From assembly GCA_902566635.1 (NCBI GenBank), contig CACFJP010000005.1, forward strand, positions 1-64,000: DNA of 64,000 bases, in the 5' to 3' direction. The position numbers were made by a program, and so were the translations under genes. The DNA is from an uncultured Bacteroidota bacterium (lineage in GTDB: Bacteria; Bacteroidota; Bacteroidia; Flavobacteriales; Flavobacteriaceae). Each line of letters starts with the position of its first letter. Within the stretch, counting starts at the first letter, position 1. Shown here piece after piece: positions 60,616-62,422 of the stretch. The notes beneath the pieces are model-generated. The model ran no database searches. It had not been told where the DNA came from and saw only the letters and a list, made by a program, of their open reading frames with translations.

Positions 60616-61440
60616 TTACACCAAAGCCAAACGCTTAAAACCAGTCACACTTAGTCCAGCATCAACCGACTTCACATAGTCGCTTACGCATTGCTTTGCA
60701 TCCTTGATATAGGCCTGATTGACCAAGGTATTATCTTTAAAAAATCGCTTGAGTTTCCCTATGGCAATATTGTCGAGCATCGCCTCTGGCTTTCCTTCCT
60801 GACGCAGTTGGTTCTTTGCAATCTCGATCTCTTTCTCAACTGTTGCTGCATCAACACCCTCTTCATTTAAGGCAATGGGGTTCATGGCAGCGGCTTGCAT
60901 CGCCACATTTTTAGCAGCTTCTGCTGCACCATCAACTCCAGCTGATAGGCTCGTTAGGGTTGCAATTTTATTTCCAGCATGGATGTATGAACCAACAAAG
61001 GCTCCTTCAAGTCGTTCAAACCCTCCGATTTCAATTTTTTCTCCAATTACACCTGTCTGTTCTGTGAGTTTATCAGCAACAGACATTCCGTTGAAGTCAG
61101 CAGCCAAAAAACTATCCAAATTATCATGACCTAAGGCCACATCTGCCAATTGGTTGGCAAGCGATACATAGCTTTCGTTTTTGGCAACAAAGTCCGTTTC
61201 ACAGTTTACCGATACGATGACACCAACAGTTGCTTCATCATTGACTCTTGCAATGACAGCTCCTTCTGAAGATTCACGATCCGCACGATTGGCGGCTACT
61301 TTCTGACCCTTTTTACGTAGAATTTCTACTGCGGAATCAAAGTCACCCTCAGCTTCGACCAAGGCTTTTTTACAATCCATCATTCCTACTCCTGTTGCTT
61401 TTCGTAGCTTGTTTACATCAGCTGCACTTATTTTTGACAT
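60616..61440 (-). CDS. tsf: Translation elongation factor Ts
   Basis: 274 residues from the ATG at 61440 (MSKISAADVNKLRKATG). A longer frame from 61470 would overlap rpsB and is rejected. The N-terminal UBA-like domain has LRKATGVGMMDCKKAL. The core has NCETDFVAKNESY, the TDFV motif that contacts EF-Tu. It exchanges GDP for GTP on EF-Tu. It is ten bases after rpsB. Confidence 0.96.
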   Translation of the reverse strand: MSKISAADVNKLRKATGVGMMDCKKALVEAEGDFDSAVEILRKKGQKVAANRADRESSEGAVIARVNDEATVGVIVSVNCETDFVAKNESYVSLANQLADVALGHDNLDSFLAADFNGMSVADKLTEQTGVIGEKIEIGGFERLEGAFVGSYIHAGNKIATLTSLSAGVDGAAEAAKNVAMQAAAMNPIALNEEGVDAATVEKEIEIAKNQLRQEGKPEAMLDNIAIGKLKRFFKDNTLVNQAYIKDAKQCVSDYVKSVDAGLSVTGFKRLALV

Positions 61441-61450
61441 TATCAGTAAT

Positions 61451-62422
61451 TTAGGCGGACAAAGCCGCAATTAGTTCTGCTTTTTTCATTTTACTATAAC
61501 CAGTCACACCAGCTTCTTTGGCAAGTGCCTTGAGTTCGGCGACTGTTTTACCACTCAAATCTTCTGCAGGTGCTTCCACTGCCTTTTTCTCTTTGGGGGC
61601 AGGAGCTTCTTCAGCCACAGCTTCTTCTTTTACTTCTACTGCTGGCGTTTCTGCAGGTGTTTCTTCTTCTGTTTTAGCTGCTTCTGGAACCACTTCACCT
61701 TCGGTTTGAGCTGCATTGGCTTCGTCGCGTTCCTTTTGACGTTCACTCATTCCCGCTGCTATGGACTGTGTGACAAGACTTAAAATTTTATCAATTGATT
61801 TCGACGCATCGTCGTTTGCAGGAATTGCAAAATCAACATCACGAGGGTCAGCGTTGGTGTCGACCATTGCAAAAATGGGGATGTTGAGTTTTTGTGCTTC
61901 GCGAACAGCAATATGTTCTCGACGTATATCGACAACAAAAAGCGCACCTGGCAAACGTGTCATTTCCGAAATCGAACCGAGGTTCTTTTCGAGCTTGGCA
62001 CGCATACGATCGACTTGTAATCTCTCTTTTTTGGAGAGTGTGTTGAATGTACCATCTGTTTTCATACGATCAATCGCAGCCATTTTCTTAACAGCCTTTC
62101 GGATCGTTACAAAGTTGGTCAGCATCCCTCCAGGCCAGCGCTCAGTGATATAAGGCATAGTCACTTCGCTTGCTTTTGCAGATACGATATCCTTTGCTTG
62201 TTTTTTTGTAGCTACAAATAAAATCTTGCGACCAGAAGAAGCAATTTTGTGCAGTGCTTGCTGCGCTTCCTCGATTTTAGTAACGGTTTTATAAAGATTG
62301 ATAATGTGGATACCGTTGCGCTCCATGTGAATGAAGGGCGCCATATTGGGGTTCCACTTTCTTGTAAGGTGACCAAAGTGAACACCTGCTTCTAGTAAGT
62401 CTTTGACTTCTATTTTTGACAT
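61451..62422 (-). CDS. rpsB: Ribosomal protein S2 with Rho_N-like C-terminal tail
   Basis: 323 residues, longer than the usual 230-260. Residues 1-235 are normal S2 (LLEAGVHFGHLTRKWNPNM, ITERWPGGMLTNF, FAMVDTNADPRDVDFAIPAN). A linker of about 50 residues rich in Ala, Glu and Pro follows, then a ~35-residue end: SGKTVAELKALAKEAG then GYSKMKKAELIAALSA. This matches the helix-loop-helix Rho_N/SAP-like fold found at the N terminus of Rho, which often binds nucleic acid. The tail may contact RNA (inference). Confidence 0.93.
   Translation of the reverse strand: MSKIEVKDLLEAGVHFGHLTRKWNPNMAPFIHMERNGIHIINLYKTVTKIEEAQQALHKIASSGRKILFVATKKQAKDIVSAKASEVTMPYITERWPGGMLTNFVTIRKAVKKMAAIDRMKTDGTFNTLSKKERLQVDRMRAKLEKNLGSISEMTRLPGALFVVDIRREHIAVREAQKLNIPIFAMVDTNADPRDVDFAIPANDDASKSIDKILSLVTQSIAAGMSERQKERDEANAAQTEGEVVPEAAKTEEETPAETPAVEVKEEAVAEEAPAPKEKKAVEAPAEDLSGKTVAELKALAKEAGVTGYSKMKKAELIAALSA

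Follow-up and report, generated by a model that had tools for sequence, protein, structure and literature searches.

Introduction

In E. coli, the ribosomal protein uS2 is bound by bS1 beside the SD-ASD site, according to one study (PMC11800381). In F. johnsoniae, the anti-Shine-Dalgarno sequence is shut off by bS21, bS18, and bS6, as described in another (PMC9976891). Ribosomal proteins that carry an additional module at one end are already curated, both as an L20 with a Rho_N-like end (NF011109/PRK14537, an L20/unknown-domain fusion) and as an S2 extended by a further domain at its C-terminus (NF051451, the 30S S2 sunset domain variant). The Rho_N profile itself (PF07498) spans part of the N-terminal domain of Rho without Rho's key functional residues, according to one paper (PMC11829017). 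Among the matches listed in the open-licence literature, none described Rho_N on S2 or L21, the likeness to the L21 tail, or an alternation of two modules at this place.

We analyzed the S2 gene in a 64,000-nucleotide stretch of DNA (the window) from an uncultured member of the Flavobacteriaceae, the product of which ends in a Rho_N module. The curated fusions resemble it in part. The isolated 36-residue module (36-mer) resembles the end of NF011109 (24.1 bits, model positions 190-223 of 232), whereas that model describes another ribosomal protein, L20, and its cut-off of 187 lies far above the 24.1-25.3 bits or so seen here. The S2 of the window scores 248 bits against NF051451, below the cut-off of 710, and its match ends at model position 309 of 382. 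We saw no solved ribosome that contains the module: the top-scoring S2 (254 aa) and L21 (147 aa) entries of the PDB stop short of it, and S2 and L21 in F. johnsoniae ribosome structures (7jil) are without it. A search of the PDB with the module profile, at E up to 1, returned three Rho entries, a Mu-like prophage protein, and L29 (chance level).

Results

The S2 core of the window is complete, matching PF00318 over its full length (296.5 bits, model positions 1-216 of 216) and passing TIGR01011 (294.2 bits, cut-off 76.3). Between core and module lies a linker with 19 D+E against 8 K+R in 63 residues, a composition that bears out the Ala/Glu/Pro linker named in a preliminary description of this DNA. 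The ATG of tsf (MSKISAADVN) is located 10 bases past the rpsB stop, although the mechanically called ORF begins earlier, at a TTG. Naming the neighbours from their translations, we read the gene order as rplM-rpsI-rpsB-tsf-pyrH-frr.

Table 1. Positions of rpsB, the parts of its C-terminal extension, and the adjoining gene in the window
Feature	Position	Strand	Basis
rpsB, uS2 (30S), 323 aa, with C-terminal extension	61451..62422	minus	ORF; PF00318 + TIGR01011
S2 linker, residues 225-287, acidic, Ala/Glu/Pro/Thr-rich	61562..61750	minus	composition in 10 genus members
Rho_N (PF07498) module, S2 residues 288-321, helix-extended loop-helix	61460..61561	minus	profile + AlphaFold2
tsf (EF-Ts), next in operon	60616..61440	minus	ORF list + sequence

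The preliminary description had proposed that S2 ends in a Rho_N/SAP-like module and had quoted its tail, GYSKMKKAELIAAL, exactly. PF07498 matches this part of S2 with 41.3 bits against a cut-off of 24.9 (E 1.5e-10), which upholds the proposal; the isolated 36-mer scores 46.6 bits, and a search of the genome with the same profile finds the same place in S2 at 44.7 bits. The SAP profile (PF02037, cut-off 23.9) gives 17.6 bits in whole S2 and 25.9 bits for the isolated 36-mer. Against the full-length Rho model TIGR00767 (cut-off 509.45), the 36-mer scores 18.3 bits, below the cut-off, and whole S2 has no match to this model at E up to 1. We then made a profile from 30 distinct L21 modules and no S2 sequence. 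It scores the S2 tail of the window at 65.8 bits, against a maximum of 7.9 bits among 2000 shuffles of the tail, which rules out a chance or low-complexity match. Applied to 77 S2 tails (the window and 76 of 80 S2 loci, four being left out because the S2 start was missed or the tail was too short), the profile gives at least 49.2 bits for eight tails and 2.8 bits for the next. Since the module is also found on an S2-sized frame in ten other genomes of the genus, an assembly chimera is ruled out. The C-terminus of S2 is thus a genuine Rho_N module.

AlphaFold2, run on the last 44 residues of S2 with a 7-row alignment, predicts two helices in a helix-loop-helix (block pLDDT 87-89). In a full-length S2 model built from an alignment of 18, in which the S2 core is poor and the mean pLDDT over the whole protein is 57.4, the module reaches 87-91 and linker residues 242-287 stay below 50. 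We read the module as a separately folded unit on a tether that is probably disordered. The best Foldseek match of the predicted tail is the N-terminus of Rho (2a8v; TM 0.73, 36 columns, rmsd 1.3, probability 0.99, E 0.64), and a weak E-value of this size is expected for 44 residues. Rho occupies the top five Foldseek rows, residues 1-40 of Rho being matched, so that the likeness to the N-terminal helix-loop-helix of Rho claimed from the letters alone is recovered in the predicted structure. The VIA comparison likewise places nine Rho chains first (Z 5.1-5.7, the highest over 39 residues), with the SAP domains of Tho1 (Z 4.5, rmsd 1.4) and 1h1j (Z 3.1) and the DNA nuclease FAN1 also in the rows; PAH3-SAP30 and CDNF with BiP appear at low scores. 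The likeness is one of fold, whereas Rho also has an RNA-binding OB fold and an ATPase, neither of which S2 possesses.

We examined how widely the module is spread. Within the genus, all 11 sampled genomes with an S2 gene, the window included, bear the module on S2. Besides the window, it is on an S2-sized frame in 10 of 12 same-genus genomes, in sequences that were read; the assemblies of the other two, G009 and G011, contain no S2 gene. The module of G008, whose sequence has undetermined bases, scores below the cut-off. Seven of the best 80 of 591 S2 loci have it, a sample that is unfair because the 80 were picked by similarity to the S2 of the window. Three of them (L033, L034, and L035) are the genus genomes G004, G001, and G008, already counted above and therefore no independent evidence, while L038, L041, L043, and L044 belong to other lineages. 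The S2-module carriers outside the genus that were examined are uncultured assemblies (the origin of L041 is unstated), and cultivated strains occur among species both with and without the L21 module.

Among the matches listed for 249 Flavobacteriaceae genomes, Rho_N is on S2-sized frames in at least three, namely two of the genus and G418, the genome of L044, and on L21 in at least 102, namely 100 L21-sized frames plus one frameshifted and one contig-edge L21 that were both read. Across 296 genomes of the phylum, the single S2-sized Rho_N frame is that of the window itself, and L21-sized Rho_N frames are present in 22 genomes of family f36, one of which was read as L21; all these L21 and S2 counts go by open-frame length, with part of the sequences read singly. 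Among the matches listed for a further set of 198 phylum genomes, the S2-sized frames of G098 and G207 read as the start of a Rho and as a Rho truncated at a contig end, respectively. The spread of PF07498 among S2 proteins, which the preliminary description had proposed to examine, is narrow, with at least 3 of 249 genomes in the family and 1 of 296 in the phylum. Two side observations concern other carriers of Rho_N. In L205 (G357:C6), the L21 gene is broken in its Ala/Lys/Pro linker and Rho_N lies in a different frame, by either a sequencing error or a real frameshift. L135, L136, L141, and L142 are family proteins of about 90 aa that combine DUF7218 (PF23855) with Rho_N, as assigned by Pfam on L135 and by likeness on the others.

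Rho_N occurs three times in the genome: once each in Rho and S2, and once at the bL21 C-terminus (L21 core 120 bits, Rho_N 40.8 bits). The S2 module is identical to the bL21 module at 27 of 34 positions, compared with 11 of 34 for the Rho of the same genome, which rules out Rho as the source. S2 and bL21 thus share the same module at a C-terminal site behind a flexible linker; they differ in that bL21 is a 50S protein with a basic linker (14 K+R and 3 D+E in 41 residues), whereas S2 is a 30S protein with an acidic one. The S2 module is itself mildly basic (6 K/R, 4 D/E). At the DNA level, S2 modules of the genus share a mean of 75.9 of 102 bases with L21 modules of the genus and 59-61 with other S2 modules.

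We built a tree of module DNA that left out 21 ids (same-genome duplicates, rows with X, and contig-edge copies). In this tree, a branch (91/90, not starred) separates the S2 and L21 modules of the genus together from the rest. A single clade uniting every S2 module is rejected (p-AU 0.036), and joining the genus to the L038-type clade gives a p-AU of 0.052. A tree of the S2 core alone is compatible with one gain (p-AU 0.326), whereas a concatenated tree of S2, EF-Ts, and S9 (72 rows, 600 columns) rejects a single gain on S2 (p-AU 0.0046), with 9 of 81 rows dropped for want of EF-Ts, up to 4 of 81 entered without S2, and L071 labelled "none" although its S2 bears a tail of another type, HHH_5. 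Taken together, the trees favour at least two gains of Rho_N on S2. L044 groups with the L038-type clade at 91 in the concatenated tree but has a long branch in the module tree, and could possibly represent a third gain. As the trees are unrooted, we infer from the far wider spread of the module on L21 that it was copied from L21 to S2, with L21 the probable donor each time. The module is also on L21 in all three S2 carriers among the 249 family genomes and in the genomes to which L038 and L041 belong; for L043, another S2 carrier, no L21 was found in the genome.

The S2 module is under purifying selection. Its dN/dS is 0.148 (36 codons, 45 genus pairs, dS 0.41) against 0.039 for the S2 core, and it is therefore constrained, less so than the core. 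Across seven aligned S2 tails, the stretch M-K-K-A-x-L-x-A-A-L-S is invariant. The other S2 tails among the best 80 of 591 loci vary freely in length and composition. The linkers show peculiarities of their own. That of L037 S2 contains KKSAA repeats, like the tail of histone H1, within an otherwise acidic sequence, and those of L038, L041, and L043 contain tandem PKAEAA-like units in variable number.

A different module, HHH_5, takes the same place in other genomes. Among the matches listed for the 249 family genomes, an L21-sized frame ends in HHH_5 in at least 107 (108 minus one bTHX-like protein), and at least 209 of 249 have either Rho_N or HHH_5 on L21, assigned mostly by frame size. Independent occurrence would predict about 44 genomes with both on L21-sized frames; among these matches there was none, a contrast that relatedness inflates. 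One candidate for both modules, G471, was rejected on reading, as the frame in question is a bTHX-like protein. On S2-sized frames, HHH_5 is found in at least 41 of the 249 genomes; the L21 of the same genome ends in Rho_N in 22 of these and in HHH_5 in 19. The S2 proteins with HHH_5 (from Maribacter, Zobellia, Muricauda, and others) resemble the S2 of the window in their long linker and in a C-terminal module that is also found on L21, and differ in having a helix-hairpin-helix in place of Rho_N. This alternation, the bL21 copy of Rho_N, and the narrow spread on S2 had all escaped the preliminary description.

With the first S2 HHH_5 tail of the alignment, three L21 HHH_5 tails share 57-68% identity. 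For the HHH_5 tails on S2, a tree with few columns and long branches is compatible with one clade (p 0.488), so that one transfer, in either direction, would suffice. The Rho_N and HHH_5 folds are unrelated and have in common their membership of nucleic-acid-binding superfamilies. HHH_5 resembles DNA polymerase IV, RuvA, and RadA, all below their cut-offs, and the ends of PRK12311 (S2) and PRK12278 (L21) resemble one HHH_5 linker-plus-tail at 24.6-34.2 bits, linker included and far below the cut-offs. These sequences suggest that the Rho_N of S2 is one instance of a broader tendency to place nucleic-acid-binding-type modules at the C-termini of ribosomal proteins.

HHH_5 also has other carriers, labelled by reading. 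In L207 (G471:C32), an HHH_5 of the L21/S2 type ends a bTHX-like 30S protein, and in L218-L222 and L227-L235 it ends a family of small membrane-anchored proteins (WCWLIPLLVG-type starts) and proteins with a GDFNNW carbohydrate-binding-like part. Since such non-ribosomal proteins carry HHH_5 as well, the module is not specific to ribosomes.

Finally, we considered the mRNA setting. Of 39 starts of long ORFs in the window, one has a core Shine-Dalgarno 4-mer at -20..-4, compared with 3 of 39 in a control stretch, with ORFs taken mechanically and wrong-strand ones left in; this lack of enrichment fits the earlier expectation of few Shine-Dalgarno sites. S1, the usual S2-bound mRNA catcher, is intact in the genome as a 622-aa frame with six S1 repeats, and the tail is therefore no stand-in for a missing S1. 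The assumed closeness of S2 to mRNA is consistent with the position of bS1 on uS2 beside the SD-ASD site of E. coli (PMC11800381).

Discussion

Our leading explanation, to which we give an even chance, is that the S2 tail is a Rho_N/SAP-like module copied from L21, kept by selection, and acting as a flexible nucleic-acid hook near the mRNA exit. The C-terminal module of L21 (34 residues) was very probably copied within the genome onto the end of the acidic linker of S2. Apart from the direction of copying, this first part is well supported, including the retention of the module by selection. The folded module, on a tether of about 60 residues, would adjoin the mRNA exit of the 30S subunit and may make weak, sequence-independent contacts with RNA (the exiting mRNA or the rRNA of a neighbour) or with DNA. 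Such contacts would raise the local affinity for mRNA in a bacterium with little use for Shine-Dalgarno sites, and the tail of bL21 would do the same job on the 50S subunit. We infer this hook action for both tails, and weak RNA binding seems most likely mainly because this site is filled, depending on the genome, by either of two unrelated folds of nucleic-acid-binding type. Three points weigh most heavily against it: Rho's key functional residues are missing from the Rho_N segment, according to one paper (PMC11829017), the linker is acidic, and the spread on S2 is narrow.

That one ribosome bears the same module on both subunits could also mean that the S2 tail recruits a protein factor which recognizes the bL21 tail as well, such as RNA polymerase, a Nus factor, Rho, a nuclease, or an assembly factor. 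Folds of the helix-extended-loop-helix type can bind proteins, as the low-scoring PAH3-SAP30 and CDNF-BiP rows illustrate, and the net positive charge of the module is only mild. We nevertheless think such docking unlikely: the alternation of the L21 module with the unrelated HHH_5 suits a shared chemistry, namely nucleic-acid binding, better than a single partner, and we know of no protein partner of the tail. It is less probable again, and in our view improbable, that the Ala/Lys/Glu/Pro linkers of rplU and rpsB simply recombine and that an L21 tail on S2 is tolerated with little function. The rare and patchy occurrence on S2, the favoured minimum of two gains, and the free variation of other S2 tails would all agree with such tolerance, but the purifying selection on the module and its presence in every sampled genus genome with an S2 gene speak against it. 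The C-terminal stretch that is invariant across separate gains points the same way, although copies of the same conserved L21 tail would match too.

Least probable among these readings, and one we hold to be very unlikely, is that the tail acts as a SAP-like anchor on DNA or nascent pre-rRNA, keeping the assembling 30S subunit (and, via L21, the 50S subunit) near the rRNA or mRNA genes being transcribed, aiding co-transcriptional assembly or coupling. The SAP domains and FAN1 in the fold rows, the isolated 36-mer passing the SAP cut-off, and the likeness of the alternative occupant HHH_5 to DNA-binding proteins (below their cut-offs) would fit such a role. In full-length S2, however, SAP stays below its cut-off, and the present data do not distinguish DNA from RNA binding.

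Returning to the hook on mRNA, one may ask how far it extends in the lineage. Exchangeable nucleic-acid hooks on bL21, uS2, and, in one genome, a bTHX-like protein might form a lineage-wide hold on mRNA or on neighbouring ribosomes that partly replaces Shine-Dalgarno pairing, a broad proposal that we consider doubtful. Should the tails prove to bind mRNA, they would suggest a testable way in which ribosomes that make no use of Shine-Dalgarno sites gather their mRNA, besides providing a clear example of domain sharing among ribosomal proteins within one genome.
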